This document shows, piece after piece, positions 6,065 through 60,173 of a DNA stretch of 64,000 nt. Both the position numbers and the translations under genes were made by a program. Position 1 is the first letter of the stretch. The number at the start of each line of letters is the position of its first letter. Source of the stretch: a virus; IMG/VR virus record IMGVR_UViG_3300042905_002309, positions 105,278-169,277 of that record; one strand, given 5' to 3'. Under the pieces are notes generated by a model, which was given only the letters and a program-made list of their open reading frames with translations, did not search any database and was not told the DNA's origin.

Positions 6065-6178
6065 TTTGACATACTCCTTATAAATATTTGAGCAGGACAG
6101 CAAGTAGTTTACTCCGCTTGTTTCAAGGTGATTGCAAGTCCCTTGATTACTGCTCTTTTAATTATTTAGTAAAATGCC

Positions 6179-46054: not shown

Positions 46055-46128
46055 TATCTTATCAGATTTTAATTATTTATCAACTTTTTATTGAATGTTT
46101 GACAAAATGATATAAATAGTTCTATAAT
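46055..46128. promoter_or_regulatory. Divergent promoter region with overlapping sigma70-like and late-like boxes
   Basis: Minus strand: TTGATA (46082-46077), 16 bp, TAAGAT (46060-46055), with late-like GATAAATA at 46080-46073 overlapping the -35. Plus strand: late-like TATAAATA (46111-46118) lying between TTGACA (46099-46104) and TATAAT (46123-46128, 18-bp spacing). Both divergent genes could be read at more than one stage of infection. Confidence 0.6.
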
Positions 46129-46148: not shown

Positions 46149-48098
46149 ATGACCCTTTCAGAAAAAGATAAAACAAATTTAATGCGATTGTATGAGAATG
46201 TTAACCGTTTCGCTGGTATCGATCCCGCTAAAGCAGCTATTATTAAAGACGCAGAACGCAAAATGGATCAGGCTTATAACCTCGTTGACCAAGTAGACCC
46301 ATTCTATTACAGCACTTTAACCAAAATGCTTCCTGATAATCGTAACATCATGGCTCAATTCGGTATCCAAACTATGCAAACCGATGGTAAACTTCTTTAC
46401 TATAATCCTGTCTTTGTAAATAAATTACCAGTTGATGCAGTATTCACTATTGTAGTACACGAAATTATGCACGTTGCTTTTGGACATCATATCCTTTTTG
46501 CTGATATCGATCCTAAAAATCAAAACTTATGGCATATTGTCAATATCGCTTGTGACTTGTCTATTAATGATCTTTTAAAGAATCGTAGCGGTTTTATCAG
46601 TGGTGGATTAATCTTAGCTGGTCAAGGTACGTATAAAGATTTGCCAAGTGGTTTAGATGCACGACAATATTATGACCTATTAGTTAAAAAGTATTCTGGT
46701 GAGGATAAAAATCAGGAACCCCCACAAGAACCTCAAGATGGTGAAGATGAAGAAGATTCTGGCGACCAAGAAGGTGAACAAGATGGTGGCGATCAGGGTG
46801 GTGACGAAGGTGAAGATGGTGAAGGTGATTCAGAAGGTCAAGAAGGTGGCGAGGAAGGCCAAGAAGACGGTGATGGAAGTGGTGAGGGTGAAGGTGAAGG
46901 TGAACCTTCTGACGGTTCTGGAAGCGGTTCTGGTAAAGGAAAAGGTAAGGGTAAAGGTAGTTCTGGTGGAGCAGGTGGTGGCGAGGGTGATGAAGAGGGT
47001 GTAGAGTCAACGGATATTAATGTACCATCTTTCAAAGACTTCGTAAAACAAGCTGATGCTAATAATAAAGCAGATATCGAAAAGGGTAAAGCAGCTAAAG
47101 GTGCTCCTGCTGAGAAACACCAAGACCAAATTGAAAAAGAATTAGATATTCCTACTAAAGATATTATAGATTATCAAAAAACTGGTGCATTCAAACCTGA
47201 TCCTAATGTTACAGAGAAAAATCAACGTAATGCTATGGCAGAACACGAGAAACAAGTTGAAGAAGAACGTCATGACGCTGAAATGAAAGAAGCTTCCGCA
47301 GCTAAACATGGTGTAAGCTATGGTGATGCTAGAAGTAAATTAGGTGTAGGTGATTGGAAAGAATCTTTGGAGAAGACTACTCAACTTAATTGGAGAGAGA
47401 TTTTACGTGAATTTATTAATACCCCAAGTCCAGAACGTCCAACTTATAATAGACCACCACCAAGATTCGTAGATGAATATGGTAAACAAGGACTTATACC
47501 TCGTGGTATGACAGGTCAAACTATTAAGGAATTAGATTTCCTTGTAGATGTATCTGGTTCTATGCCTGATGCAGTAGTTGCAAAAGTATTCGGGGAAATT
47601 GCAGATATCGGAACTGAGTTAAAAGGTAAATGTAATGTACGCTTATCTACCTTCAATACTCGTATCCAATCTGAAAGAATGTTTACCAATAGTGGTGAAT
47701 CTTTCGAATCTATTCAAGCTTTGGAATCTGGTATGAGAGCTATGTTACCAAGAGATGAAGAACATATGATGCGTTTCGATGAAATGCCTATATCTTTCGC
47801 TAACTTTAAGTTTGTAAAAACTGGTGGTGGAACTGATGTAACGTCTGCTCTTACCGCTACTAAACACTTGAAACCAAGACCAGCTTTGGTAATCGTATTC
47901 ACAGATGGTGACTTTATGGAAAATGAATACGCTAGTTTACGTAGTTTTACTGATGATGGTATGAAAATTGTATTCTTGCTTACTACAGAAGATACTTCTC
48001 ATATCAAAAATAATGCATACTTTGATCCAGTTAAATATAGCATATTCGCAAACGTAGGTACTGTATATAACTTGTTGGATTACTCTGCATATACCTGA
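46149..48098 (+). CDS. Metallopeptidase-like / VWA domain protein (DUF2201-like), 649 aa
   Basis: N-terminal zincin-like domain: FTIVVHEIMHVAFGHHILFA with HEIMH at 104-108, then WHIVNIACDLSINDLL. A long acidic Gly/Glu/Asp/Ser linker follows (residues about 185-285). The C-terminal von Willebrand A domain has MIDAS residues DVSGS near 466, GGGTDVTSAL near 559 and VFTDGDF near 582. This architecture is known as the partner of MoxR-type AAA+ ATPases in bacteria (from memory, DUF2201). The matching ATPase is at 56920-58017. Expressed from a late/sigma70 double promoter. Confidence 0.85.
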   Translation: MTLSEKDKTNLMRLYENVNRFAGIDPAKAAIIKDAERKMDQAYNLVDQVDPFYYSTLTKMLPDNRNIMAQFGIQTMQTDGKLLYYNPVFVNKLPVDAVFTIVVHEIMHVAFGHHILFADIDPKNQNLWHIVNIACDLSINDLLKNRSGFISGGLILAGQGTYKDLPSGLDARQYYDLLVKKYSGEDKNQEPPQEPQDGEDEEDSGDQEGEQDGGDQGGDEGEDGEGDSEGQEGGEEGQEDGDGSGEGEGEGEPSDGSGSGSGKGKGKGKGSSGGAGGGEGDEEGVESTDINVPSFKDFVKQADANNKADIEKGKAAKGAPAEKHQDQIEKELDIPTKDIIDYQKTGAFKPDPNVTEKNQRNAMAEHEKQVEEERHDAEMKEASAAKHGVSYGDARSKLGVGDWKESLEKTTQLNWREILREFINTPSPERPTYNRPPPRFVDEYGKQGLIPRGMTGQTIKELDFLVDVSGSMPDAVVAKVFGEIADIGTELKGKCNVRLSTFNTRIQSERMFTNSGESFESIQALESGMRAMLPRDEEHMMRFDEMPISFANFKFVKTGGGTDVTSALTATKHLKPRPALVIVFTDGDFMENEYASLRSFTDDGMKIVFLLTTEDTSHIKNNAYFDPVKYSIFANVGTVYNLLDYSAYT

Positions 48099-48108
48099 AA
48101 GGACTAAT

Positions 48109-48891
48109 ATGAATTTATTTGAACAAATGTATAAAGATGTGTTGTTAAATGAGAGTATGATACAAATTCCTTCTAACTCAGAAGTTATATCATTATTGAA
48201 TACTGTTATAGCAGAAGAAAATCAAAGAGAAATTGATAATCATAAAAACGCTTTTGCAACTATGCAAAAAGAATTCCCTAAAGCACCTAAAGATGCTATC
48301 ATTAGAAGACTTCCAAAACCTAAAGTAAATATCTTTGAACCAGATCAACCAGCTTTTATTCTTGAAGCTGTAAAAGCTGCAATAAGAATTTATGAAAAAT
48401 TCTATTCTATTGCATCTAATCCTAACAGCAAGGTCGAAGATTATAAAGTTGCTAAACATCAAATCGCTAAAGATTGGTATCCTATCAGAGGTGAAGCAAA
48501 AGTCGGTGGAAAACAACCAGCATCTATAGCCGTTATTCGCTTATTGAATACTGCATTAGGTTTCAAACATGATGATATCTTTAAAATACCTCTTTACCCT
48601 AATCCAGAAGGTTATATGATGCCACGCTTAGACTTAATCCCTTATGTCATAGCACGTAAAGCTGTTATGGATGCTTTCAAAGCTGGTAAAATTACAGAAG
48701 AACGATCAAAACAAATGATTCGTGACTTATCCAAATTGGTGCGAACTGATGTACAAAACGTTGAGGATGCCGATATCAATAAGTATCATGAAGATCATAA
48801 TACAGAAGCACCTTTAATGAAAACTGAACCTGAGATCGGTCCATCAGAAGTGGCTACAGCATTAAATCAAATTCCTAAACGTTACAAATAA
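48109..48891 (+). CDS. Unknown protein with leader-like N-terminus, 260 aa
   Basis: MNLFEQMYKDVLLNESMIQ resembles a capsid-targeting helix with L-N-E as a possible prohead protease site. The rest is helical and basic (LEAVKAAIRIYEKFYSIASN; LIPYVIARKAVMDAFKAGKI). Starts 10 bp after the VWA gene with AAAGGA before it, so cotranscribed. Could be packaged, or a partner of the VWA protein; no family. Confidence 0.6.
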   Translation: MNLFEQMYKDVLLNESMIQIPSNSEVISLLNTVIAEENQREIDNHKNAFATMQKEFPKAPKDAIIRRLPKPKVNIFEPDQPAFILEAVKAAIRIYEKFYSIASNPNSKVEDYKVAKHQIAKDWYPIRGEAKVGGKQPASIAVIRLLNTALGFKHDDIFKIPLYPNPEGYMMPRLDLIPYVIARKAVMDAFKAGKITEERSKQMIRDLSKLVRTDVQNVEDADINKYHEDHNTEAPLMKTEPEIGPSEVATALNQIPKRYK

Positions 48892-48892
48892 C

Positions 48893-49066
48893 TTAATACG
48901 AATTGAGTAAGATGTCACCATAAGGAGTGTGGAAATGTGGTTCAGTTACACCAAATCCATAATCTATTGACCATCCACACTTCTTTGCATATACTTTATC
49001 TGCCTTGAACTTCTTAGCTATTTTCAAAGCGTATAAATGATATAAAGGTAGTTTGCGCTTCTTCAT
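48893..49066 (-). CDS. Small unknown protein, 57 aa
   Basis: ATG 49066 to TAA 48893-48895. Basic N-terminus MKKRKLPLYHLYALKIAKKF, then VYAKKCGWSIDYGFGVTEPH. It ends convergent with the previous gene. Coding-like codon use and no other feature in this stretch. Confidence 0.5.
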   Translation of the reverse strand: MKKRKLPLYHLYALKIAKKFKADKVYAKKCGWSIDYGFGVTEPHFHTPYGDILLNSY

Positions 49067-49095
49067 AGAATACTACTGTGGATGGTTGATGCATG

Positions 49096-49257
49096 TTAAT
49101 AGCGTCTATTAGGTTTAGCTACTTCATTAAGAATTGCTAAAACTAATAACAAGATAATAAACGGAAAGAATATAGCTATTGCAATCGATAGTGTAATAGC
49201 CATAATAAGAATAAATAATGTCACACCAATAAATTTAGAAATAAATCCGTTTTTCAT
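49096..49257 (-). CDS. Small membrane protein, 53 aa
   Basis: ATG 49257, overlapping the HAD gene's last bases (stop at 49254). Two hydrophobic segments (FIGVTLFILIMAITLSIAIA; IFFPFIILLLVLAIL) and a short basic tail. Could be a holin-like or inner membrane protein; no family. Confidence 0.6.
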   Translation of the reverse strand: MKNGFISKFIGVTLFILIMAITLSIAIAIFFPFIILLLVLAILNEVAKPNRRY

Positions 49258-49748
49258 ATTTTTTCTCCATTCAAAAGTTTAATAGCTTTGTCAGCTAACT
49301 CATCTGTAAGTCCAGTTTTATATGGATTAGTTTCAATAAATTCTTTATGGAAATAATCTTTAACTGAAAGATCATCATCTAAAATTACAAAGTTTTTATA
49401 AGGATTTAATTGTAAATAATCATAAATCTCTTTACCACGATATGCACAACCCGGTTCTACTGGCGTATCACCAATATAACGTTCTTTAACTTCTTTACCT
49501 AATTGTTTCCACATGTAATCCTGCATTTCTTCATGATGTCTCCATGTGGAACTTAATACCAATTTTGCACCAGTTTCTCTTAAAATTCGAATTAGAATAT
49601 CTACCTTATAAGGTTCAATACCTGTATATCGACGTTTTTGCATTCCCCAACCTGTATTTATATAATACGTAGGTGTACGCTCTTTGGTAAGATCGGTATT
49701 CAAAACTCCATCAATATCTAAAAAAACTATCTTATCTGTATCGGTCAT
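49254..49748 (-). CDS. HAD-superfamily phosphatase-like protein
   Basis: 164 aa. HAD motif I IVFLDIDGVLN with nucleophile D, motif II LVLSSTWRHHEE, motif III region GKEIYDYLQ, motif IV FVILDDDLSVKDYF. The single small domain resembles the HAD part of 'Swiss Army knife' RNA repair proteins and other phage polynucleotide phosphatases. Acts on phosphorylated ends or nucleotides (inference). First recognisable enzyme of the minus-strand accessory operon. Confidence 0.8.
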   Translation of the reverse strand: MTDTDKIVFLDIDGVLNTDLTKERTPTYYINTGWGMQKRRYTGIEPYKVDILIRILRETGAKLVLSSTWRHHEEMQDYMWKQLGKEVKERYIGDTPVEPGCAYRGKEIYDYLQLNPYKNFVILDDDLSVKDYFHKEFIETNPYKTGLTDELADKAIKLLNGEKI

Positions 49749-50133
49749 TTAATTGTCCTCTTTTATAAACTTCTTTAAGTACATTTTCAGCAAGTCTATC
49801 ACACAAACGTTTATAAATCAAGCGAATATACTCATCATTATTTATAGCTTCATATCGATTTGGCAACTCAATAGTAATAGAATCTTCCATACTATTAATC
49901 GAATATTTGACTAATAACTTATCCTGAAAACACAAATGATCTTTATACACTTCGGCAACAAAATTAAAACTATTATCCTGAACCCTAATCTCTGATACAA
50001 TCTTTTTTAATGCAGCTTCTTCCATCTCTTTCAATAATCTTACTGAATCAGATGTAGGTGCTCTATTTACATTTATCGTATCTGGTAAATTATAATACTC
50101 AGTTGTTTTATGTGTGTCTATGTAGTCAAACAT
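49732..50133 (-). CDS. Unknown protein, 133 aa
   Basis: ATG 50133; its stop overlaps the start of the HAD gene by 17 bp. MFDYIDTHKTTEYYNLPDTI, a central beta sheet pattern (NFVAEVYKDHLCFQDKLLVK) and a helical end. No motif. Member of the accessory operon. Confidence 0.6.
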   Translation of the reverse strand: MFDYIDTHKTTEYYNLPDTINVNRAPTSDSVRLLKEMEEAALKKIVSEIRVQDNSFNFVAEVYKDHLCFQDKLLVKYSINSMEDSITIELPNRYEAINNDEYIRLIYKRLCDRLAENVLKEVYKRGQLNDRYR

Positions 50134-50146
50134 TATATCACTCTCG

Positions 50147-50245
50147 CTATCTGTTGTCTACAATCTCCTGAACATTATCACCAGCCCATTTTACAGCTTC
50201 AATAACTATTGCTCTTTTTCTATAACTTCTATTACATCTTCTCAT
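50147..50245 (-). CDS. 32-aa peptide resembling the start of a PGDYG-type phage protein
   Basis: ATG 50245 to TAG 50147-50149. YRKRAIVIEAVKWAGDNVQE then IVDN matches the opening of small phage proteins that begin 'RKKPVVIEAVQWTG.N..EI'. Those proteins are normally longer, so this looks like a truncated relative or a short functional form. Placed in step with its neighbours. Confidence 0.45.
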   Translation of the reverse strand: MRRCNRSYRKRAIVIEAVKWAGDNVQEIVDNR

Positions 50246-50247
50246 AT

Positions 50248-50523
50248 TTATTCCTCTATTATTACGTTAAACAATTTCTTAGCACATTCCTCACAAGCAG
50301 TATGATAATTTAGTAGTGGAAATCGTGAATCAACCATCTTAGCATCTTTAGTGCAACAGTGTCTACACTTTAGAATAATTAACCGTTTTTCTTTTGCATC
50401 TGTATAAGTACTCTTATGTGCATCAGCATCCATACCACTTTCACCAGCTATACATTCGTGTAACTTTACTGTATAAAATAATGGTTCTTTTCCTCGACAA
50501 CTTGGTGGTAATTGTATATTCAT
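50248..50523 (-). CDS. Cys-rich protein, tandem copy A, 91 aa
   Basis: MNIQLPPSCRGKEPLFYTVK; CRHCCTKDAKMVDSRFPLL; ACEECAKKLFNVIIEE. The two CxxC groups suggest a zinc site. Clear paralogue of the neighbouring gene: same LPPSC start, 'KDAKM' centre and identical ending LFNVIIEE. Stop one base from the small gene below. Confidence 0.65.
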   Translation of the reverse strand: MNIQLPPSCRGKEPLFYTVKLHECIAGESGMDADAHKSTYTDAKEKRLIILKCRHCCTKDAKMVDSRFPLLNYHTACEECAKKLFNVIIEE

Positions 50524-50820
50524 TTATTCCTCTATTATTACGTTAAACAACTCTTTCGCATGATCTTCACACGCAGTATATTTATTTAAAACCGGAACCC
50601 AAACATCCAACATTTTTGCATCCTTTTCACAATAATTACACTTCTTAGTGTAATATACAGGTCTACCTTCGAATAATGTATTCGTTACCTTTTCAACAGG
50701 GTTAATCCTATAGACATTATGTGCGGTAGATTCATCACCTGTAAAACATTCACACATACGCACTTTAATATAACTTGGGGTTTGTATGTTGCAACTTGGT
50801 GGTAATTCCATTATCCCCAT
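50524..50820 (-). CDS. Cys-rich protein, tandem copy B, 98 aa
   Basis: ATG 50820 (with ATG 50811 as alternative), overlapping the upstream gene's last codons; GAGGGG precedes. MGIMELPPSCNIQTPSYIKV; CNYCEKDAKMLDVWVPVLNK; ACEDHAKELFNVIIEE. One cysteine of copy A's second pair is His here, still compatible with zinc. Evident tandem duplication. Confidence 0.65.
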   Translation of the reverse strand: MGIMELPPSCNIQTPSYIKVRMCECFTGDESTAHNVYRINPVEKVTNTLFEGRPVYYTKKCNYCEKDAKMLDVWVPVLNKYTACEDHAKELFNVIIEE

Positions 50821-51041
50821 ATACCCCTCTTTATCTTTGCTTTTCTTAGAATGGGATAATATGCACCAACCCATTCAATAGGCTTTTCATCTAAAGTTTT
50901 ATTAAGTACCAAAGGTCCAATAAAATCTCTCCATGTCTTACAACGATTCTTAGCCTTCTTCTCAGTATCATATAATCCCAATATCTCAAGCCTTCCGCTT
51001 TTATGATACCTACATGCTAACCAATTAATTTGCTTTTTCAT
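50811..51041 (-). CDS. Small basic protein, 76 aa
   Basis: ATG 51041 with GAGG upstream is preferred to 51062. MKKQINWLACRYHKSGRLEI, then ILGLYDTEKKAKNRCKTW, ending ILRKAKIKRGIWG. Aromatic and basic; no family. Overlaps copy B by 10 bp. Confidence 0.55.
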   Translation of the reverse strand: MKKQINWLACRYHKSGRLEILGLYDTEKKAKNRCKTWRDFIGPLVLNKTLDEKPIEWVGAYYPILRKAKIKRGIWG

Positions 51042-51042
51042 A

Positions 51043-51264
51043 TTAGACCTCTGTATCCTCATCTAATTCAACAAAATTTTCAATATGATAACCAACCTTT
51101 ATATTGCCACATGAATCTGCTATTACACAGTGTCCTCGCATATTTGGAATCTCTCCAAGAAATATAATACTGCCCCATAAACTTGTGTTTTCCTTTAAGG
51201 ATTCATCATTAAGTTTCACTAATGAATATTGTCTAGGAATTTTAATCTTCTTTTTTCTTTTCAT
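51043..51264 (-). CDS. Small unknown protein, 73 aa
   Basis: MKRKKKIKIPRQYSLVKLND start, then GSIIFLGEIPNMRGHCVIAD, acidic end ELDEDTEV. Resembles a short beta barrel (protein made of a few strands around GxVxxGEIPN). Overlaps the upstream stop by 4 bp. Confidence 0.55.
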   Translation of the reverse strand: MKRKKKIKIPRQYSLVKLNDESLKENTSLWGSIIFLGEIPNMRGHCVIADSCGNIKVGYHIENFVELDEDTEV

Positions 51265-51533
51265 TTATTCTCCTGTTGTGCTTTCAACTCTTTCAACATC
51301 TCTGTATACTCTTTGCAAATATCTTCATCAGCCATTTTAATCTCATACTTACTCATATCTAATTTACCAAATTCTTCATCACTTTGTAATTCTTCTAATA
51401 GATGTTCATAATCACTAAAGGTAGGCTTTTTCTCATATCCACAGAAATGTACAATGTTTTGAAGACCTTCGGAAGTCTTTTCTTTCTCAACAACTATATA
51501 TCCATAATTAAACTTCATATCAAAATTTGCCAT
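51261..51533 (-). CDS. Small unknown protein, 90 aa
   Basis: ATG 51533 with GGAG upstream. A longer in-frame reading from 51575 would run through the real gene at 51535-51708 and is rejected. MANFDMKFNYGYIVVEKEKT; helical acidic C-terminal half (YTEMLKELKAQQENK). No family. Confidence 0.6.
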   Translation of the reverse strand: MANFDMKFNYGYIVVEKEKTSEGLQNIVHFCGYEKKPTFSDYEHLLEELQSDEEFGKLDMSKYEIKMADEDICKEYTEMLKELKAQQENK

Positions 51534-51534
51534 A

Positions 51535-51708
51535 TTATGCTCCACTTCCATCCCATTCTTCTTGTAATACTTCATACTTCTTTAGGTAATCACTGCGCTT
51601 TAATAACTCCCAAACACCATCCGAATGCTTAATAACTATATCACGTTCTTCGATAATGTCAACTATATTGCCATGACCATCATAAAATAATCCACCATAG
51701 AAATACAT
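51535..51708 (-). CDS. Small unknown protein, 57 aa
   Basis: ATG 51708 to TAA 51535-51537, placed exactly between its neighbours. MYFYGGLFYDGHGNIVDIIE, then VWELLKRSDYLKKYEVLQEE. No family, but the reading frame fits the spacing of the operon. Confidence 0.55.
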   Translation of the reverse strand: MYFYGGLFYDGHGNIVDIIEERDIVIKHSDGVWELLKRSDYLKKYEVLQEEWDGSGA

Positions 51709-52569
51709 TCATGTTTCTCCTAACTTCTTAACATTTAAAAACACCTTAGAAATATCCTTAACATACTTCGGGGGCGCAGGATGATCTTCCAAAAACTCCC
51801 CAATACCCTTTATAACCTTACGCTTATCCGTCATATACCACCCACTTGAATGAAAATCCCCACACTCCATAATACTAAGCGTACCATTTAATTCACATAC
51901 GTCCATTACAAATACATCTGACGGAACCCAAATCTTACACATCTCTCGTACAAATTCATACACTCTCTCAGGTACATCAGCAGAAATTTTCAAATTGTGA
52001 CTAACTCTGTACTGACTTCCACTAATAGGTTCACCATTAATTACAAAAATACGCCACTCTGTATTAATATTAGACGCAGTAGCTACTATAATCTCTGTTT
52101 CATCGTTTACCCCATAGTCCTGTCCCTTTATAAGACTGTACCAAGACATGAAATTAACTGTATCTATCGTCAACCCTGCAAACTCTTTCAAATCTTTGTC
52201 AGGTCTTATAAATAAAGTCTCTATACCCTTGAAACAACTAGGACTGAAATCACGCATCTTCATATGAATTCCATCAGAATTAAACATGTGTGTACCATAA
52301 TTCTTCATGTAAATGTGATATCGGAAATTCTCGTTAAACCATATACACCAATCCTTTGTAACACGACACTTCTCGATAAAATTCGTTCCACCATAAGGAA
52401 TAACATGATAAGACTCTGTATCATAATCTGGTATGTTGTCGTATACAAAAGGTTTAATGTCTACTAACGCATACATATGTCCAGAAGAATTGATAGCAAA
52501 TCTTAAATCAGCAGTATCATCCTGATTCAAAAGATTAGCTTGTATCAAAAATAATGGAACTTTATTCAT
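51709..52569 (-). CDS. ATP-grasp-like ligase (R2K-type), 286 aa
   Basis: C-terminal two-thirds has the small phage ATP-grasp pattern: IETLFIRPDKDLKEFAG (nucleotide-binding K/R), EIIVATASNINTEWRIFVIN, GSQYRVSHN, then SDVFVMDVCELNGTLSIMEC and FHSSGWY (metal-binding E/N equivalents). R2K ATP-grasps are predicted amide-bond ligases that modify proteins or peptides in phages (family knowledge). Partner of a second such enzyme 0.5 kb upstream. Confidence 0.7.
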   Translation of the reverse strand: MNKVPLFLIQANLLNQDDTADLRFAINSSGHMYALVDIKPFVYDNIPDYDTESYHVIPYGGTNFIEKCRVTKDWCIWFNENFRYHIYMKNYGTHMFNSDGIHMKMRDFSPSCFKGIETLFIRPDKDLKEFAGLTIDTVNFMSWYSLIKGQDYGVNDETEIIVATASNINTEWRIFVINGEPISGSQYRVSHNLKISADVPERVYEFVREMCKIWVPSDVFVMDVCELNGTLSIMECGDFHSSGWYMTDKRKVIKGIGEFLEDHPAPPKYVKDISKVFLNVKKLGET

Positions 52570-52768
52570 CCTTTTCCCTCACTGTACATATGTTATAACC
52601 CTCTTCGTTTAAAGATGTTACAAAGATGGGAAAGAATGGTGAAAGATATCCGCCTTGAGGCATACTTTTAATATTCTCAAATATATACCCAAATCCACAG
52701 TTAGAAGCATCTGCACAAATATCACGTTCTGGACACACATGACCTACAAATTTAATGTTCTTACTCAT
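52562..52768 (-). CDS. Small Cys-containing protein, 68 aa
   Basis: MSKNIKFVGHVCPERDICAD, then ASNCGFGYIFENIKSMPQGG. Three cysteines near the N-terminus could hold a metal. Overlaps the ATP-grasp start by 8 bp. No family. Confidence 0.55.
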   Translation of the reverse strand: MSKNIKFVGHVCPERDICADASNCGFGYIFENIKSMPQGGYLSPFFPIFVTSLNEEGYNICTVREKDE

Positions 52769-52901
52769 CTTTAAGCATTCCTTCTAATATCTTTATGTGT
52801 CTCTTATAATGTAATATTAACCGTTTGATATTAATTCTCTCTAAGGTTGATTGATTATTTTGAAGTGTCTTTTGACCCCAAACTAGTTTCTTTTTACTCA
52901 T
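52761..52901 (-). CDS. Small basic protein, 46 aa
   Basis: ATG 52901 with AGGAGAAAG upstream; stop TAA 52761-52763, overlapping the next gene by 8 bp. MSKKKLVWGQKTLQNNQSTL then a basic amphipathic helix (KRLILHYKRHIKILEGMLK). Not seen in known families. Confidence 0.5.
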   Translation of the reverse strand: MSKKKLVWGQKTLQNNQSTLERINIKRLILHYKRHIKILEGMLKDE

Positions 52902-53091
52902 CTTTCTCCTTATTCCTGTTAGCCTTCTCACTCGCACTCACAGCCGTTTTAATTATCCCAAGCATAGCATATTCCTTGAAATTGTCCACAGCTATTATTC
53001 GTTCCTCTTCCATTAACTCAAACATGTACCTAGCCCTTAACGTTCTATCAGGATTTACCACAGCTTCCCGTATCTTTTCCCATCGCTTCAT
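52894..53091 (-). CDS. Small helical protein, 65 aa
   Basis: ATG 53091, 5 bp after the ATP-grasp-like gene stop, overlapping the next gene's start by 8 bp. MKRWEKIREAVVNPDRTLRA; YMFELMEEERIIAVDNFK; ends in a charged KNRNKEKDE-like tail. Helical; no family. Confidence 0.5.
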   Translation of the reverse strand: MKRWEKIREAVVNPDRTLRARYMFELMEEERIIAVDNFKEYAMLGIIKTAVSASEKANRNKEKDE

Positions 53092-53094
53092 ATT

Positions 53095-53778
53095 TTATTC
53101 CTTTACTTTAGACTTTACCATATCCGCATACCCATATGCAATCCATTTCGCATACTTCTCTCCATCCTTAATTCCCTTCCCATACCACCCACATGAAAAA
53201 GCATGTTGATACTCTATCAAAACAATACTCCCATCTTCACACTCCCCCATATCTAAACATCCATATAACCCACTGAAATCTATCCCAAAACTTTCCAAAG
53301 CTGGTGAATCCTTGCACTCATCTTGTCCAGCATACCAAAACCCCTGCTCCAATTCGCTTCCTAAATAATACCTCCACTCATTCTTAACCTTTATAACATC
53401 TGAACATACATATGGTCCACGCTTCTTACGCCTATACCCACCATTCGTTACAAACCCTGTAAACCTCTTATACTCATCAGCAGGTTTAATGAATACTTTT
53501 CTACCTAAAGGCCATTCATCCGTATACCATATGTTTCGCTTTAATAAACTTTCAAAAGTATAATAATTCGGCTTCACCTTATATCCTAATACCCCCTGTA
53601 TAAACTTAATGTCACCTACTGGTATCATATCACTTTTAACGTCTTTTTCCGACGAAACCACAACATATGGTATACTTGCCAAAGAAGCTGACACAAGAAC
53701 AGTACTTTCTTCATACGCATGTAGGTTCTTTTTGTGAATGGCGAAGCCACGGTAATCTGTCGGTATTAGGTTATTCAT
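53095..53778 (-). CDS. Second ATP-grasp-like protein, 227 aa
   Basis: Same core pattern as the 51.7 kb enzyme but clearly divergent: RKVFIKPADEYKRFTGFV, SDVIKVKNEWRYYLG, then YGCLDMGECEDGSIVLIEYQ and HAFSCGWYG. The N-terminal part differs. Two ATP-grasp paralogues in one operon suggest successive ligations or a pair of substrates (inference). Stop overlaps nothing; start overlaps the nuclease stop by 4 bp. Confidence 0.65.
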   Translation of the reverse strand: MNNLIPTDYRGFAIHKKNLHAYEESTVLVSASLASIPYVVVSSEKDVKSDMIPVGDIKFIQGVLGYKVKPNYYTFESLLKRNIWYTDEWPLGRKVFIKPADEYKRFTGFVTNGGYRRKKRGPYVCSDVIKVKNEWRYYLGSELEQGFWYAGQDECKDSPALESFGIDFSGLYGCLDMGECEDGSIVLIEYQHAFSCGWYGKGIKDGEKYAKWIAYGYADMVKSKVKE

Positions 53779-54314
53779 ATCTTTACTATAACTGGTTGTA
53801 TATCTTCCATAATATCACCCAACTTTACTAAAGTCAATACATCTTTTCTGTCTCGCCTTTGATAAAGCTTATAACCAGCCTCTTCCTTACTTACAAAAGT
53901 CTTGGTCACTCTTTTAGCTATAAAATCCACTAACTTTTGACGATTTATTAACCACATCGAATTGTTAAATATATAAGCAATATACACGGCTTTACCATAT
54001 AACCACCCAAGACGACCTGCTACATTTTTAAGCTCTATCCATACCCATTCTTCCATTAAATCTTTAGAATCACCCGAAAATGTTAACGTGCGCTTTGAAC
54101 TCTTAATGTCAATGGGAAACCTTATACCCTTATATGTAAGATAATAATCAATGTGATCATACATGTCTTCCTCAAATGAAGTCTTCTCAATACCCATACC
54201 ACGAACCTTTGCTATACTTCTAAAGATTTCATCAGAACTTAATGCAGTATTATAACACCTCTCAGGTACATTCTTATTAGCCTTAACTTGTTCTAAAATA
54301 TTTTCCATATCCAT
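53775..54314 (-). CDS. Probable PD-(D/E)XK nuclease-like protein, 179 aa
   Basis: ATG 54314 with AGGA upstream; a longer frame to 54344 is less likely. SFEEDMYDHIDYYLTYKGIR then FPIDIKSSKRTL has the E...DhD...(D/E)xK arrangement of the PD-(D/E)XK fold as seen in small phage endonuclease-like proteins. WVWIELKNVAGRLGWLYGKA and NNSMWLINRQKLVDFI follow. Could cleave host or mobile DNA, or process phage DNA. First gene of the minus-strand operon. Confidence 0.65.
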   Translation of the reverse strand: MDMENILEQVKANKNVPERCYNTALSSDEIFRSIAKVRGMGIEKTSFEEDMYDHIDYYLTYKGIRFPIDIKSSKRTLTFSGDSKDLMEEWVWIELKNVAGRLGWLYGKAVYIAYIFNNSMWLINRQKLVDFIAKRVTKTFVSKEEAGYKLYQRRDRKDVLTLVKLGDIMEDIQPVIVKI

Positions 54315-54346
54315 AAATCCTACCATAAATATCCAAAAAGTCAACC

Positions 54347-54374
54347 TTGCTTTTTCAAAATACTGTGATAAGAT
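54347..54374 (+). promoter_or_regulatory. Sigma70-like promoter
   Basis: TTGCTT (54347-54352), 16 bp ending TGA, TAAGAT (54369-54374), 7 bp before the ATG at 54381. Same form as the replication-region promoters. Confidence 0.55.
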
Positions 54375-54380
54375 ATTTAC

Positions 54381-54560
54381 ATGATTAACTTAATACTATT
54401 TTTCTACTTCTACTTCGGTATAACCTTCGGCATATTCTCCTATGGTAAACAAATCGAAATGTACGGCTTCTACCCTCGTAGAAATATTTCCGCACTATTA
54501 CTCAATATGTTCCTATGGCCTATAACTTACCCTTTAGCTCTCTTTAAAGGTTATATATGA
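54381..54560 (+). CDS. Small membrane protein, 59 aa
   Basis: ATG 54381. MINLILFFYFYFGITFGIFS, a polar loop with KQIEMYGFYPRRN, then a second hydrophobic helix (ALLLNMFLWPITYPLALF). Predicted two-span membrane protein. The stop overlaps the next ATG (ATGA). Confidence 0.6.
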   Translation: MINLILFFYFYFGITFGIFSYGKQIEMYGFYPRRNISALLLNMFLWPITYPLALFKGYI

Positions 54561-54661
54561 ACCCTATGAACTTACTAGGTTATGTAATCTTAATAATAGC
54601 TGTATCCACTGCTGATATCTATCTATTACCTCTAGCTGTCGTTCTAATCTTACTCTGGTAA
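54557..54661 (+). CDS. Very small membrane peptide, 34 aa
   Basis: ATG 54557, ATGA overlap with the previous gene. MNPMNLLGYVILIIAVSTAD then YLLPLAVVLILLW: two short hydrophobic stretches. Probably cotranscribed and cotranslated with the 59-aa membrane protein. Confidence 0.5.
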   Translation: MNPMNLLGYVILIIAVSTADIYLLPLAVVLILLW

Positions 54662-54666
54662 ACATT

Positions 54667-55458
54667 ATGACTAAAATCTGCTCCAAGTGCCACATCGAGA
54701 AACCTTTAGAAGAGTTTTATAAAGATAAATCTAAAATTGATGGAATTGATATATACTGTAAAATTTGTAATAAAGAGAAAAATAAAAATTATAGACAAGA
54801 AAACACCGAAAAAAGAAAATTAATAAATAAAAAATACTATAAAGAAAATAATAAAATTTTAAGAGAAAAACGTAAAAAACGATATAACAAAAATCCAGAA
54901 CAAGAAAAAATATCACATAAAAAATATCGTGAAGAAAATATAGAGAAAGAAAAACTTAGATGTCAAATTTATCACCAAAAGAATTTAGAAGTACAACATG
55001 AACGTCATAAGAATTACAGACAAGAGAATACCGAAAAAACTCGTACAAGACATAAAAAATACTATAAAGAAAATTCAAAAAAAATTTTAGAAGTTGGTTA
55101 TAAACGTAAAAGAGTAAGATTAAAGAATGACTCTTATTTTAAATTTAAAGAAGGTGTTCGGTCTATGTGTTATAGATTTAGTAAACACCCATCAACCCAT
55201 ACACATGATTACATTTGTTGTAGTTATAAAGAATTGTGGGAACATTTACAAAAACATTTTAAAGATGGTATGACTAAAGAAAACCAAGGAAAGGTTTGGC
55301 ACATAGATCATATTATACCGTTATCATTCTTTGATTTGAATGATCTAACAGAAGCTAAAATTGCTAACCATTGGGGTAATCTACAACCACTTTTTAAAGA
55401 AGAGAATCTTTCTAAACATGATAAAATTCCTGATAAACAAAATTTTCTATATATATAA
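54667..55458 (+). CDS. HNH homing endonuclease, zinc-ribbon type with repeats
   Basis: 263 aa, the longest of the five. CSKCHIEKPLEEFYKDKSK then YCKICNKEKN is the zinc ribbon. The middle is an expanded series of YRQENTEK / YYKENNK-like repeats, unlike the shorter spacers of its relatives. HNH core VWHIDHIIPLSFFDLND and HWGNLQPLFKEENLSKHD. Sits between the small membrane genes and the G+C-rich region. Confidence 0.87.
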   Translation: MTKICSKCHIEKPLEEFYKDKSKIDGIDIYCKICNKEKNKNYRQENTEKRKLINKKYYKENNKILREKRKKRYNKNPEQEKISHKKYREENIEKEKLRCQIYHQKNLEVQHERHKNYRQENTEKTRTRHKKYYKENSKKILEVGYKRKRVRLKNDSYFKFKEGVRSMCYRFSKHPSTHTHDYICCSYKELWEHLQKHFKDGMTKENQGKVWHIDHIIPLSFFDLNDLTEAKIANHWGNLQPLFKEENLSKHDKIPDKQNFLYI

Positions 55459-55599
55459 TTTAGAAAAAATAATAAAAAAAATTTTTTAAAGCTATGCTAA
55501 TGTCCAGAACACCTAGTGGGTTACTAGGGTATATCTAATTATTTTTCACTGCTTGTCAAGCTTTTTATTGAAATACTTAACATTTCTTTTAAAGATAAT
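55459..55599. other. A/T-rich spacer
   Basis: Between the HNH gene and the terminator of the next minus-strand gene. A 6-bp hairpin CCTAGT/ACTAGG at 55512-55528 without a T run, and homopolymer-rich DNA. No gene seen. Confidence 0.5.
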
Positions 55600-55627
55600 A
55601 AAAAAGGCGAGGGGGTTAGCCTCGCCT
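55600..55627 (-). terminator. Intrinsic terminator of the 55.65 kb gene
   Basis: 8-bp stem AGGCGAGG / CCTCGCCT (55605-55612 and 55620-55627), 7-base loop, running into T5 on the minus strand. Confidence 0.85.
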
Positions 55628-55649
55628 GTCAAGTCTTATCTCCTGTGGG

Positions 55650-56162
55650 TCAGACCACTAAGAACTCTTCCCCGTTCATGCGTACCGCTTTGATACGGTC
55701 AACCTTGTAGGTACGCACTACCACTTCCTTGTCAGTCCCCTGTGACTTGTTGACACTCTTAGCAGGTAGGTAGGGGGCGAGTACTGCCTTGTCAACCACT
55801 ACACCATTGACACGATACACTATCTCACTAGGCGCATTGGGGATGGAGAGTTGAATGGACACCTCACCATTCTTGGGGTTGAGGATGATGCCCTTGCCAA
55901 GGTTCTCACCCCATGTGCGACCCTGTGCCTCAAACGACCCTTCCTTGCCCTCACGAACCAATTGGCGATTGACACCTGCCTCATAGTCGAAACCAAACTG
56001 CCCTGTCAAGCTGGTGGTCTTTGTGACCTCATCCCCCGCCATGAGATAGGGGTTGCCTGTCTTCTTCATCTCGACAGGTGCGGTGTAATCCAAACCCACG
56101 AATGTATTGCCAACAACCGCTTCGAACATTCCAACCAACTCAACCTTGCTAATCGTCTTCAT
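55650..56162 (-). CDS. Unknown beta-rich protein, 170 aa, unusual base composition
   Basis: ATG 56162 with AAGGAG upstream. GQFGFDYEAGVNRQLVREGK; NGEVSIQLSIPNAPSEIVYR; ends RIKAVRMNGEEFLVV. Hand-counted stretches here are 52-55% G+C against about 37% in a polymerase stretch. No family recognised. Oriented with the MoxR-like gene but separated by non-coding DNA and a terminator, so it must have its own promoter. Confidence 0.7.
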   Translation of the reverse strand: MKTISKVELVGMFEAVVGNTFVGLDYTAPVEMKKTGNPYLMAGDEVTKTTSLTGQFGFDYEAGVNRQLVREGKEGSFEAQGRTWGENLGKGIILNPKNGEVSIQLSIPNAPSEIVYRVNGVVVDKAVLAPYLPAKSVNKSQGTDKEVVVRTYKVDRIKAVRMNGEEFLVV

Positions 56163-56815
56163 CTTTATAACTCCTTCTTACTTTGTTTTTACTCGTATCG
56201 CTTTCGATGTGAATACTATCTCATATCCTTAAACTTTATGCAACATTTATTTTAAAGTTTTCTTTTGTGTGGCAAGATGTGGTCGTCTATAGCTCATCCC
56301 TATTAAATAGTCAACAGACTTCACTTTTTCTAATGAAATATATAATTTGATTTCAACGCTTCACTACGCTATAGAAGATCGTATGCAACTTTTTGAATAT
56401 GTGGCAGGATTGTCGTCTATAACACATCTTTGAAAATTCTCCTAACATTCATTTCGAAATTTTAATGTTTTTTATTGAAGTCTTTGGAACGCTTCTCTAT
56501 AACAAAAAAGCTTTGAAACACCTACAGAAATCTTTTGAAATTTTAATGTTTTTTATTCAAGCGTTTTAAAGCTTTCTATAACACTTCACCCATACATCTG
56601 TCAACAATATACCACACAAATTGTATAAGTTTCTTTTGCTTTTCTCAACTTTTAGAATCGTCAGGAAGGTGTCTAGAATGCCTTGTGGTGGGTCTTTTAG
56701 TCGAACCTTCATCAGGGTAGGGGTAAACGTAAAAACAGCGTTTTATAAGGGGTATTCAAGTATTCTTAAAATTATGTTAAAGCTTTGTAGGGCATCCTAG
56801 AGGGTCTTTTTGAAG
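56163..56815. repeat. Non-coding region with diverged repeats (left array)
   Basis: No convincing gene in 650 bp. Units: GTGGCA.GAT.GTCGTCTATA (56269 and 56401 regions), a CTATAAC-initiated unit at 56497-56555 of the form CTATAACA..AAAGCTTT then AACACCTA and ending in TTTTAATGTTTTTT, and a TTTTAATG TTTTTTATT motif at 56461 and 56541. The same units recur at 59361-59560. They frame the AAA+ gene and its neighbour. Confidence 0.55.
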
Positions 56816-56849
56816 TGTCTCAAAGATGTCTCAGGTGATATGTGAGACA
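56816..56849. promoter_or_regulatory. Direct and inverted operator-like repeats
   Basis: TGTCTCA at 56816-56822 and 56827-56833 (11 bp apart), with inverted TGAGACA at 56843-56849. Lies just past the end of the MoxR transcript and upstream of the 55.65 kb gene, a plausible repressor or activator site for it. Confidence 0.4.
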
Positions 56850-56863
56850 GATGTGATACAGAC

Positions 56864-56895
56864 GCAAAAAATCCCCAACCTTTCGGAAGGGGATT
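56864..56895 (-). terminator. Intrinsic terminator of the MoxR-like gene
   Basis: 7-bp stem AATCCCC / GGGGATT (56870-56876 and 56889-56895), extended by T6 on the minus strand. Confidence 0.85.
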
Positions 56896-56919
56896 GTCTA
56901 CTAGTTCAGTAGAGGTACA

Positions 56920-58017
56920 TCAGGCTTTATGTCTACTGATCCACTTGATATACTCAGAGCTTCGAACGATTTCGGGAAAGTCCATCACAAGCTTATCCAT
57001 TGCATAACGTGCGATCTCGTTTGGAAAGCGTGAGATATAGGTAACAAGTGAAGGTGCAAGTTCAGTCTTTGTACGTGCATCATTAACCAGTACAGTTAAG
57101 AATCTATGACGTAGTGACAAGTCATCTGGGATAATGGCTTGTAGGGGATTTGAAGCCACTTCTTGAAGGGTTGGCAAGTCTTTCATCTCTTCCAAACGGA
57201 TGACTTCAATGGCACGATCTTTACCGATGACACCTGCTAGACAAGCTAATAGAACATCACCAAAATCTGAACCAGCTATTTTCAAAGCTTTGTAAGCCTT
57301 CAAAATGGCATTGGCAAACACTGCTGTACGCTTGTTACATACAGCCGATTCCACAAATTCATCACGAGTTTTAATCGGGTCAGCCTGAAACATTCGAATG
57401 ATGGATTCTTCAACACCTGTTGAACGCATATATTCGACATGATCATCATGAGCAGAGGCGACATTTTCAGACACATACAAGTGACAGAAACGACCTTTTG
57501 CATGTTCTGAAAGTTCCTGCGTATTGGTATCACTTCGACCATTACCCATACCCAAAACAAACATCCCATGAGGAAGGTTATGCCTATGGTCTGTACGATC
57601 AATGGCATACTTCATCATTTCAATCAAAGTCTGGTAATAAGCAGGGCGATCAATTTCATCCAACCGGAAAATGCCTTTTGCATCAGAAGGAAGCTGAATT
57701 GAAGAAAAATACTTCAAAACTTCCTCAGACGTTTTGACATCTAAACGAATGGCAGGAACACCATGAATATCTTCCGGTGACATCCCTGAAAGATTGACAT
57801 CCATTTGACACCACATATCACCAGTTGCCTTTGTCAAATCAACGCCTAAGTTGTTGGTAATGCCATTCTTACCGATACCAGATTGACCCCAAAGAATCGC
57901 CCCAAACCGTTCCTTTTGTCCACCTTTGTACTCAGGCATATAGGACTGAGCCATGACGCACAAGACAATGGCTTTTTTCGCTTTCGGCAGTGAGAGGTAT
58001 ATAACATTCGATTTCAT
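56920..58017 (-). CDS. MoxR-type AAA+ ATPase
   Basis: 365 aa from ATG 58017, GGAG upstream. Walker A AILWGQSGIGKNGITNNLG with K50 followed by N51, where S/T is normal. Walker B GIFRLDEIDRPAYYQTL near 118. Sensor 1 FVLGMGNGRSDTNTQELS near 152, arginine-rich end of AAA (AKGRFCHLYVSEN). Family knowledge: MoxR ATPases work with VWA-domain proteins to remodel or insert metals into target complexes. Here the likely VWA partner is at 46149-48098. Above-average G+C compared with phage core genes. Confidence 0.82.
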   Translation of the reverse strand: MKSNVIYLSLPKAKKAIVLCVMAQSYMPEYKGGQKERFGAILWGQSGIGKNGITNNLGVDLTKATGDMWCQMDVNLSGMSPEDIHGVPAIRLDVKTSEEVLKYFSSIQLPSDAKGIFRLDEIDRPAYYQTLIEMMKYAIDRTDHRHNLPHGMFVLGMGNGRSDTNTQELSEHAKGRFCHLYVSENVASAHDDHVEYMRSTGVEESIIRMFQADPIKTRDEFVESAVCNKRTAVFANAILKAYKALKIAGSDFGDVLLACLAGVIGKDRAIEVIRLEEMKDLPTLQEVASNPLQAIIPDDLSLRHRFLTVLVNDARTKTELAPSLVTYISRFPNEIARYAMDKLVMDFPEIVRSSEYIKWISRHKA

Positions 58018-58159
58018 TTTGCTGACTCCGTTTTCTCGTTGGCGTTATTGCCTCCGATTCATCAAGACTACCAGAAACTAAGCTTTGTACAAGATTTATT
58101 TCAACTATTTTCAAAAGACAGTGGGCTACTTTCACAACCCACTGCTTTGCAACAACTTA

Positions 58160-59053
58160 TCAATCTGCAAACATCCCTGCAAACTTCGTCGCAACATCAC
58201 TTGCAACTGTCACAGCGTTTTTACGCTTGATTTCATCATGTTTGAATTCGTATTCCTGAATGCTTCCAAGTTTTTCTTTCATTTCAGCAATTACAGCATC
58301 AACAGCAGGGTTGTTAGTGACGTTGTAGGTCGGGAGTTCCGCAATAAGGTCACTGATATGCTTCACAACGGTCTTCCATTGCGTCCCCTTGGTATCGGTG
58401 GCAGTACACTTTTTAATGAGGTCTACAGACCATTCTTGAACCTTTTCAGCCATTACTTTGACAGGTGCATTTTGAGCATCCTTTTTTGCCATTTCAATAG
58501 CCTTAACATGTTCATCCTCAATCATTTGTACCGTATCCGTTCCAAGGATTGCCAACGCTTCATCAATATTCATGCAATTGGTATTTTTTTGCAAGATTGT
58601 GGTGACTGAAAAAGTACGATCAACATCTTTGACATTAAGATCGTTTTCAGATTTGTAAAGCGTTCCCTGTTGTGCTTCTGCAATACGTGCCAATTCACCC
58701 GTTTGAACCGCATCACGAAGATGTGAAACTTGAAGGTTGAAGGTTGAAACCGCTTCTTTCAAATCGGCCTGAAACTTCACAAACTTCTTGATCGGAATGG
58801 CATACATACCTGCCAAACGAATGCCATGCTTTTTATAAACGTCATACACCTTAGTACCTGCTGACGAAATAGGCTTCGAAAAACTGTCAGGAAACTTTTT
58901 GACCAATGCCGTAACCGTTCCAGATTCAGCATCATGAGAATCAGAAACCTCATTCCCCAGTTCCTTATCCTGTTTCTTCATGGACAGACCAGAAATCTTG
59001 ACGTTACCAAAAACAACCTGCATCCCAATACCAACTTTGACTTCGTTATTCAT
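58160..59053 (-). CDS. DUF3150-like protein, 297 aa
   Basis: ATG 59053. Long helical protein: EVKVGIGMQVVFGNVKISGL, then KFVKFQADLKEAVSTFNLQV, NVTNNPAVDAVIAEMKEKLG. I recall proteins of this build (DUF3150) next to MoxR/CbbQ-type ATPases and VWA proteins on plasmids and phages, but I cannot verify the match. Located 143 bp upstream of the MoxR-like gene in the same direction, probably one operon. Would be the third member of the ternary set. Confidence 0.55.
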   Translation of the reverse strand: MNNEVKVGIGMQVVFGNVKISGLSMKKQDKELGNEVSDSHDAESGTVTALVKKFPDSFSKPISSAGTKVYDVYKKHGIRLAGMYAIPIKKFVKFQADLKEAVSTFNLQVSHLRDAVQTGELARIAEAQQGTLYKSENDLNVKDVDRTFSVTTILQKNTNCMNIDEALAILGTDTVQMIEDEHVKAIEMAKKDAQNAPVKVMAEKVQEWSVDLIKKCTATDTKGTQWKTVVKHISDLIAELPTYNVTNNPAVDAVIAEMKEKLGSIQEYEFKHDEIKRKNAVTVASDVATKFAGMFAD

Positions 59054-60113
59054 GACTTTGCTTCTTTCAGTTACACAGAGACTTGATTGCCTCCGATGTC
59101 AATTACTTTGCACTATTCCCCATTTAAGATCAACATTTATCTTAAACTTTATTTCACTCAGTACTTTAAGTATTTCTTGCTTATCCGTATCAACATCTGC
59201 TATAGACTCAAATCCCTACTGCGTCATTTTGTCACACCTTTAAAAAACATTAAAATTTGTTTCAAAGCTGTTGACAGATTTTTAAATGTGTGTTATATCG
59301 CGCACACCCGCATCCTACTTAACATGTTACACCGCTTTCCACCCTTCCACCCTTCCACCACCTATAACACATCTTTTTAAGTCGTCTACAAATACTTGGT
59401 TTTTTTATTCACCTGCAAAACCCTTCTCTATAACATAAACCTTTTAAAACACCTATCGAAAACTTTGAAAATTTTAATGTTTTCTTAAACCTTCTCCCTA
59501 TAACAAAAAAGCTTTAAAACACCTATCGAAAACTTTGAAAATACTTGGTTTTTTTATTGAATAAAATGTTTCTAAGATTTGAGAACTTTTCAATAAACTT
59601 TATGTTCAAAGCTTTTTTCAGTCGTCGTACATTGCCTTAATTTATTTTGCAAATTCCTCAACTTTTAGACAAATATTACTTTAAAACATTTTTTCAGTCG
59701 TCGTACATTGGCACTTGTCAAGTTTTAAAAATCGTGGAAAGCATTTAAAAGACTTGACAAGATGTTTCAAAAATTGTAAAGATGGGACTCCTGTAATAAT
59801 AGCTTTGGTACATTAAATATTATTCTGTACAATCTCTTAACTTTTTGGTATATTCATCATTTCTTTACATCTTTATAACACTGCGTCAGATTGTCACAGT
59901 AAGGTATGAATAGATATTTTAATTATAAGTCCTTATCTTTGAAACACTTAGGAAGATATATGAATAGATTATGAAGATATGAGTGAAGATGTAAGTGAGT
60001 AAGAGGGTGACAACTTGGCATAATAATGTGACAATTTGGCGCAAAAGTGTGGGTCTTTTCGCATAGTTGAGAAACACTATCAAAAAATAATGAATAATGG
60101 TCGAACAAACCTA
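59054..60113. repeat. Non-coding region with repeat array (right array)
   Basis: No supported gene in about 1.1 kb. CTATAAC units at 59361, 59428-59485 and 59498-59560 match the unit near 56497. A 22-base segment containing TTTTTTCAGTCGTCGTACAT occurs exactly twice, at 59613-59634 and 59689-59710. AATACTTGGTTTTTTTATT occurs at 59391 and 59541. Such A/T-rich phased repeats between divergent units could be a replication origin or control region. Confidence 0.55.
60007..60040. promoter_or_regulatory. Phased direct repeat, operator-like
   Basis: GTGACAACTTGGC (60007-60019) and GTGACAATTTGGC (60028-60040), starts 21 bp apart (two helical turns), one mismatch. About 75 bp upstream of the early promoter at 60114. 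Confidence 0.45.
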
Positions 60114-60142
60114 TTGACATGTTGATAGGGATGTGGGAAGAT
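60114..60142 (+). promoter_or_regulatory. Right-end early promoter 1
   Basis: TTGACA (60114-60119), 17 bp, GAAGAT (60137-60142). Shares flanking GGGATGTG with the promoter at 60633. Confidence 0.6.
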
Positions 60143-60173
60143 ATTAATCACTTAGGGAGAAAAGGGGAATAAG

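Follow-up and report, generated by a model that had tools for sequence, protein, structure and literature searches.

A split set of MoxR-type ATPase, DUF3150-like and zincin-VWA genes in a phage genome as candidate parts of one remodelling machine

Can three genes that lie apart, one of them on the opposite strand to the other two, encode the parts of a single machine? The question is raised by a 64,000-nucleotide stretch of viral DNA (hereafter the window; bases 105278-169277 of the 248,016-base IMG/VR virus record IMGVR_UViG_3300042905_002309), in which the original prediction had proposed a MoxR-type remodelling system composed of a zincin-VWA protein, a MoxR-like AAA+ ATPase and a DUF3150-like protein, here termed V, M and T, respectively. 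We found the three families in place, their genes tightly linked elsewhere and split here, a late promoter motif in front of V and a second copy of T in the record. Our tentative reading, to which we give a little less than an even chance, is that T, M and V would be the three parts of one ATP-driven remodelling machine, split in its genes, with a virion protein as its likeliest target.

T4-type myovirus genes are also present in the window, namely those of the tail sheath, the tail tube, the large terminase and a DNA polymerase; matches to the large terminase were obtained in 2,505 phage records, every one of them below 60% identity. The features on which the argument rests are as follows.

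46149-48098, plus strand: V, a 649-aa DUF2201 protein with an N-terminal zincin-like domain and a C-terminal VWA domain with an intact metal ion-dependent adhesion site (MIDAS)
46458-46487, plus strand: zincin motif HExxHxxxxH of V (H104, E105, H108, H113), with HEIMH present
47547-47561, plus strand: MIDAS motif DVSGS of V (D467-S471), with T562 and D586 further on
56920-58017, minus strand: M, a 365-aa MoxR-type AAA+ ATPase
57865-57888, minus strand: Walker A motif of M (GQSGIGKN), in which Asn replaces the Ser or Thr of relatives
58160-59053, minus strand: T, a 297-aa DUF3150-like protein, upstream of M on the same strand

Family assignment of V, M and T

All three open reading frames (ORFs) were open and full length at these coordinates. 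When compared with NCBIfam and PADLOC, V, M and T gave no family over cut-off or no match at all. In Pfam, V matched DUF2201_N (2.7e-25) and the VWA family DUF2201 (1.9e-7) in one chain, both over the curated cut-off, which together with the HEIMH and DVSGS motifs bears out the zincin-VWA assignment made earlier. The linker between the two domains is long, acidic and Gly-rich. Across 213 sequences, the zincin residues were retained in 208 (H104), 205 (E105), 211 (H108) and 210 (H113) cases, and the wider pattern including D136 was kept in 205-211; it is complete in the V of the window. The same holds for the MIDAS, where D467, S469 and S471 were kept in 212 of the 213 (with one gap), T562 in 209 and D586 in 206. 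The zincin-like domain of V may be a peptidase or a metal-handling domain. Among the 176 relatives measured, V ranks first in length (649 aa vs. a median of 392), and its VWA region has extra residues compared to five relatives, in which a finger like that of NorD could, by analogy, be placed.

In PHROGs, V matched phrog_1314 (8.9e-47). This family is labelled ‘HNH endonuclease’, yet its member in the window is a DUF2201 zincin-VWA protein in which the Pfam scan detected no HNH domain. The same name is carried by two RefSeq phage genes (L005:5854-6990 and L013:5508-6734) that align with DUF2201 proteins, and the label of phrog_1314 is probably wrong.

The original prediction of a MoxR-like ATPase held for M by way of PHROGs and structure, though not of Pfam, which gave no MoxR or AAA family and listed a single match, to RsgA_GTPase at 0.17. 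M matched phrog_1297 (‘ATPase’) at 7e-32 and was also aligned with phage MoxR proteins, both by alignment and by hidden Markov model (HMM). Its AlphaFold model, built from 68 sequences, had a mean predicted local distance difference test score (pLDDT) of 90.8 and matched MCM, NorQ and CbbQ2 chains in the PDB. M retains the Walker B DE, the sensor-1 Asn and the Arg-finger position, the assignment of motifs to columns being our reading of the alignment. The Ser or Thr of the Walker A motif in P-loop proteins binds the Mg ion. Among 216 aligned sequences, the residue after the Walker A Lys was Ser in 183, Thr in 27, a gap in five and Asn in one, namely M; thus M alone departs from the pattern GxxGxGK followed by Ser or Thr, to which the other 210 aligned residues conform. 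By sequence, M is clearly homologous to MoxR proteins; we class it as a very divergent homologue with one altered catalytic-motif residue rather than as a proven active enzyme.

Neither Pfam nor PHROGs assigned T to a family, the few matches (0.006-0.06) all being chance-like, and T itself did not match DUF3150 (PF11348). A phmmer search with the single T sequence against 5,515 ORFs from the loci fetched at that point, irrespective of position in the locus, returned 12 relatives besides the window copies (1.3e-10 for the T of L031, then 2.4e-8, 4.3e-7, 1.8e-6 and weaker), one of them a plasmid gene (3.3e-4). Each of the 12 is located either between M and V or no more than 2.3 kb before M. Five of the ten relatives scanned matched PF11348 below cut-off, from 4.7e-5 (the T of L031) to 4.3e-3; in the family alignment of 75 sequences, 39 reached it with an E-value of at most 0.01 (best 1.2e-9), and every other family was matched by one member at most.

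The predicted model of T (pLDDT 87.1, predicted template modelling score 0.67) gave Foldseek matches to viral models of up to 2.8e-12, including one of 7.7e-12 to a phage protein named DUF3150 (TM 0.46-0.47). These viral fold matches have good E-values but TM-scores of 0.29-0.50 and root-mean-square deviations near 20. No match below 1e-3 was obtained in the PDB. VIA-align detected helical-bundle resemblances, mostly over residues 170-297, with a best Z of 10.8, which the notes of the tool place in the range of helical models. No match came from pairwise BLASTP of T against three plasmid proteins, such relationships requiring larger searches or profiles. Taken at family level, T is DUF3150-like, that is, homologous to proteins matching that family; phmmer, the family's PF11348 matches and Foldseek agree in this, and the concern that the protein might belong to an unrelated family was not borne out.

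Linkage and joint divergence of the three genes

A scan with T alone retrieved 97 loci (80 viral, 17 genome), and M and V were both present in 94 of them. T lies at a contig end in the three exceptions (L153, L180 and L186), which explains the gaps in L180 and L186 under the common gene orders. The scan with V gave 80 loci, or 77 once the two window copies and an already known locus (L080) were removed. M was found in 73 of the 77 and T in 43, and in the four loci without M either V or T was at the contig start. Co-occurrence of the ATPase and VWA genes in related phages, on which the prediction had been made to depend, is therefore the rule, with the proviso that these counts are partly dependent, several loci (some from the V scan) being on contigs that were retrieved twice.

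In total, 154 three-gene loci (130 distinct T) were assembled, 153 of them (129 distinct T) besides the window. The order in the other 153 was M-T-V in 109, T-M-V in 39, V-M-T in three and M-V-T in two; in every one of them the genes share a strand, and no gap exceeds 3,443 bp. The window layout, in which V is encoded against the strand of T and M and the gap is 8,822 bp, is unique among the 154, as flanks reaching 10 kb reveal it; more distant splits elsewhere would appear as a missing gene. The same arrangement was found in a second contig (161,045 bases), which encodes V, M and T at 100% protein identity, again with V on the other strand from T and M; an error in one assembly therefore does not account for the split.

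In the loci examined, T occurs in uncultured phages and some bacterial contigs, nearly always with MoxR and VWA genes, and the three-gene set is also found on plasmids. Many loci have M and V without T. T was searched for in 36 whole records, two of which, the three-gene loci L021 and L065, gave the matches; in the 34 records without T at the locus, of which 31 have M and V there and three have M where the contig ends, no T was detected elsewhere either. These 34 include cyanophage S-TIM5 and four named N4-like records. Since many of the records are fragmentary, a missing T is weak evidence. Two plasmid pairs of MoxR and DUF2201-type genes were identified by HMM, one in the Priestia megaterium plasmid pFDU301A (L011) and one in a Thermus plasmid (L010), where a gene for a leucine-rich-variant/HEAT-like repeat protein stands upstream in the place of T.

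Across 99 dereplicated loci, pairwise distances were correlated between M and T (r 0.73), M and V (0.79) and T and V (0.76), and such correlations were reached in 0 of 999 permutations. For each of the three proteins, this phage has the highest mean distance of the 99 loci; maximal divergence of all three, together with the correlated distances, is expected if joint evolution continued after the split. The co-divergence supports joint evolution; shared inheritance gives the same pattern, so contact between the proteins is not proven by it. In the M tree, the three-gene and the pair types cluster (5 changes vs. 26.9 when shuffled), and in four resamplings of a type score the M of the window leaned to the three-gene type each time (2.3 to 24.3 bits; held-out accuracy 93/100). 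Its placement in the tree is unsure because of its long end branch (3.83 changes per column).

Could the resemblance to a triplet be due to chance, with genes that here have nothing to do with each other? The 8.8 kb and the change of strand between V and the T-M pair would fit such an explanation. Against it, the families co-occur in nearly all loci examined and co-diverge, and we regard it as highly improbable.

The divergence and the split also suit a history of degeneration, in which M would have lost normal catalysis, the cluster would have broken and the parts would drift or have taken separate jobs. The Asn found in one of 211 aligned Walker A residues, the long branch of M, the 8.8-kb separation on opposite strands, the extra T and the extreme position of M, T and V among the 99 loci can all be read in this way. 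However, decay normally leaves broken genes, and all frames are open and full length here; M keeps Walker B, the sensor-1 Asn and the Arg finger and gave a confident model, V keeps its zincin and MIDAS residues, and two contigs encode identical proteins. Degeneration is, in our view, improbable.

Control signals, composition and the second T

Further features lie upstream of the three genes.

46111-46118, plus strand: T4-type late promoter motif TATAAATA, 38 bp before the ATG of V
58047-58057, minus strand: 11-base leader motif TCGGAGGCAAT, upstream of M
59086-59096, minus strand: 11-base leader motif TCGGAGGCAAT, upstream of T
59419-59553, minus strand: two tandem copies of a 65-nt repeat with TGTTATAG, upstream of T, possible regulatory sites
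56488-56552, minus strand: third copy of the 65-nt repeat, upstream of the gene at 55650-56162

The late promoter that had been attributed to V is thus present as a motif. The TATAAATA octamer also lies at most 45 bp from five other genes, including those of the tail sheath and of a baseplate-hub-like protein. In the window, six of its 17 sites are at most 45 bp upstream of a gene on the same strand (binomial P 4e-6, the 45-bp limit having been chosen after the distances were seen), and none was found at T or M. To judge from this motif, V is probably made late.

Other signals lie near T and M. A 26-mer of the 65-nt repeat matches solely at 59498-59523 and 56497-56522, and the six minus-strand TGTTATAG sites of the window all lie at 59.37-59.51 or 56.42-56.58 kb. 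TCGGAGGCAAT has two exact copies in the window (at 58047 and 59086); at least two matches, with one mismatch allowed, were obtained in 6 of 100 shuffles. A sigma-70 scan near T and M showed little excess (16 found, shuffles averaging 11.1 with a standard deviation of 3.3).

The ATPase had been described as sitting in a patch of unusual composition, which proved correct as far as composition goes. Among the 43 ORFs of at least 450 bp, T and M rank second and third in GC content at third codon positions (GC3; 0.391 and 0.364, vs. a mean of 0.250 and a standard deviation of 0.085), while the GC3 of V (0.223) is typical of the window. The second T, encoded elsewhere in the genome, has a similarly high GC3; the patch may therefore reflect its region rather than a foreign origin, and a recent gain of T and M need not follow from their GC3.

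This second T lies outside the window:

G000:C1:190841-191731: T2, a T paralogue of 296 aa

T2 is 29% identical to T over 290 residues (E 1e-37), has a GC3 of 0.351 in DNA of 36.7% GC and does not match PF11348. Both T and T2 are present in the near-copy contig. All 41 other three-gene records have exactly one T, and no second M or V was found in this record. Among the sequences compared, the closest match of T2 is the T of the window (115 bits; the next, 43), which makes the duplication look lineage-specific. An RNA ligase gene is located near T2. A gene for a SprT-like metallopeptidase (5.4e-15; L280:4688-5065, equivalent to G000:C1:188687-189064) lies 1.8 kb upstream of T2; SprT-like zincins are among the proteins reported for jumbo phages in a survey of that group (PMC7824862).

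The separate signals and the duplicate allow for a staged machine, which we consider unlikely as a whole. T and M would be under a control of their own, T2 would serve as an alternative or mixed adaptor, and late V would complete the machine. The Asn-bearing ring of M may, in that case, hold its nucleotide and need V or T for turnover, so that the arrival times of its partners, rather than ATP, would set when it works.

Several neighbouring features were also recorded. The gene directly after V is listed here:

48109-48891, plus strand: a 260-aa protein, 10 bp downstream of V

It is possibly co-transcribed with V. Its product gave no Pfam match below 0.05 and no PHROGs match, and no homologue was present among the loci fetched to that point. 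The gene at 55650-56162 (minus strand), behind the third repeat copy, encodes a 170-aa protein; its GC content is 52% and its GC3 (0.62) the highest of the 43 ORFs. The sole phage-record match of this protein is in a 484-kb uncultured phage (LR756508), and none was found in plasmids. LR756508 has neither V nor T, only weak M-like matches (2.8e-10 and 1.4e-6), so this gene is tied to the system solely by the shared upstream repeats.

Upstream of T, the 1.1-kb intergenic region at 59054-60173 is dense in direct repeats (51-nt, 48-nt and 65-nt families) and is close to the place at which both gene strand and GC skew change over; it could hold regulatory sites or an origin. Four paralogous freestanding HNH/endonuclease VII-like genes, probably of homing type, were identified at 5339-6103 and 30922-31626 (minus strand) and at 39309-39926 and 54667-55458 (plus strand), one of them between V and M; they show 34-36% identity to the first, and the one scanned matched phrog_1035. 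Between V and M there are also two genes of R2K-clade ATP-grasp proteins (51709-52569 and 53095-53778, both minus strand; R2K_3 5.6e-16 and R2K_2 6.1e-12), which are weakly similar to each other.

Known systems and the target of the machine

The original prediction had also regarded a virus-encoded version with a split layout as undescribed in function. The split stands, as seen above; for the M-V pair the rest of the claim goes too far, since a pair of this kind has been studied at the level of function in ATV, and others are on record for jumbo phages and N4-like phages. In a 2021 survey, a MoxR and metallopeptidase-VWA pair is reported in group 2.2 jumbo phages, with a proposed role in virion assembly (PMC7824862). 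That pair shares both domain architectures with M and V, and the survey's account of it mentions no third component, split or duplication. In the archaeal Acidianus two-tailed virus (ATV), the MoxR protein p618 interacts with the VWA protein p892 and is stimulated by it in its ATPase activity; a chaperone role in tail development has been assigned to p618 (PMC4124505). The likeness is one of description, the passages on p618 and p892 mention no DUF3150-type partner, and the two proteins are described as having no peptidase domain (PMC7824862).

In 25 N4-like phages, gp24 and gp25 are core genes listed with function unknown (PMC4193335), and phrog_1297 and phrog_1314 appear, from matching record labels, to contain them. 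As here, an AAA+ ATPase adjoins a DUF2201 zincin-VWA gene in four N4-like records (DUF2201 confirmed in two); unlike here, the pair is adjacent on one strand and comes without T in the four records, which were searched whole. Identity to the window proteins is about 20-25%. Pairs or single members have been named in other phages as well, namely a MoxR subunit with a linked second subunit in 0305phi8-36 in 2007 (PMC2147016), a MoxR/VWA pair in roseophages (PMC2784036) and a MoxR gene in cyanophage S-CREM1 (PMC9964418).

A full set is annotated in Synechococcus phage MinM2 (a 65,014-bp record), where MoxR, DUF3150 and VWA-like genes are all so named, with no function given; unlike the window set, it lies on one strand and within 4.5 kb, in a genome of 65 kb. 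Three T queries against 50,697 phage records matched only MinM2 and the Planktothrix phages Pag-Yong1 and Pra-JY27, whose records have the same length as that of MinM2 and which are known here from these matches. Full-text searches of the open-licence literature, the jumbo-phage survey included, returned no paper for DUF3150, none for MoxR with N4-like, S-TIM5 or Schitoviridae, and none mentioning any two of Pag-Yong1, MoxR and DUF3150.

Cellular systems offer further parallels. NorQ/NorD and CbbQ/CbbO likewise combine a MoxR ring with a VWA partner, but two components are named in each and their targets are enzymes (nitric oxide reductase and Rubisco, respectively). We know of no zincin or T in these systems. 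In NorQD, the VWA protein has been described as inserting a finger into the AAA+ pore, the partner being twisted as the ring moves (PMC13036017). Ternary MoxR-vWA conflict systems share a three-part logic, their third part being described as VMAP, iSTAND, FtsH or a beta-propeller and not as DUF3150 (PMC7159879). T had no Pfam or PADLOC match to any of these four classes, for which no class-specific profiles were run. The parts and the M-V pair are thus known, the third part is hardly described, and the split and the duplication were seen nowhere else in our sample; the second T, the most divergent proteins of the 99 loci and the Walker A Asn are new here.

By analogy with NorQD, in our tentative reading M would form a MoxR-type AAA+ ring on which V would dock through its VWA domain as an arm, with the zincin-like domain as the working end at the target. 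T, with a small alpha/beta part and a helical bundle, would be the machine's third subunit and probably serve as an adaptor. The genes for T and M stand together, with their own upstream repeats and no late promoter motif, and the late promoter of V would let the complete machine form only in the late phase. The likeliest target would be a protein of the phage that is undergoing assembly into the virion or processing for it, as the late promoter of V, the ATV precedent and the proposal made for jumbo phages suggest.

Several observations weigh against this reading. The Walker A Asn may impair ATP hydrolysis by M. In four resamplings, the type score of V (three-gene vs. two-gene; held-out accuracy 89/100) was 14.3, 2.1, 10.5 and -13.3 bits, and, as its sign varies, it does not prove that V shares its descent with T and M. 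In L153, the 10 kb downstream of T hold neither M nor V, which fits only if both lie upstream. V was also considered as a missing prohead protease and ruled out as such, since the record has its own gp21-type prohead protease; V is therefore not needed for the prohead step.

The surroundings of the three genes in other phages, where they form one cluster, point the same way. Within 6 kb of 102 dereplicated loci of the 153, with 10 of the 30 listed clusters scanned and counts that are rough owing to greedy ORF calling, the most frequent of the identified neighbours were terminase (14 loci), DNA polymerase III beta (12), DUF4942 (10), DNA polymerase A (8), a DUF5906 protein (7) and DnaB (6). These genes point to packaging and replication and not to the tail, though each is found at only a small share of the loci. 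N4 gp24 and gp25, moreover, are described as middle genes (PMC4193335).

Neighbours and N4 timing both favour a version in which the same three-part machine acts on host or replication proteins, remodelling or degrading them early or in the middle phase for host takeover, or loading or clearing replication proteins, while the promoter of V tops up its supply. The presence of the set on plasmids, where no virion need be built, fits as well and so, faintly, does the setting of T2, close to RNA ligase and SprT-like genes and in 15 kb without TATAAATA (about two expected by chance). On the other hand, the sole promoter motif found at V is a late one, the composition of V is typical of the window, and the bacterial and plasmid sets may sit on prophages or mobile elements. 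This version is quite possible, if doubtful.

The addition of the DUF3150-like T to the core pair of N4, for which no function is stated, defines a complex that can be produced and assayed. The split set and the doubled T separate the roles of the subunits, perhaps in time, and make the target and the timing of the machine testable. Should the staged arrangement hold, it would represent a phage-specific timing mechanism for an AAA+ chaperone-protease.

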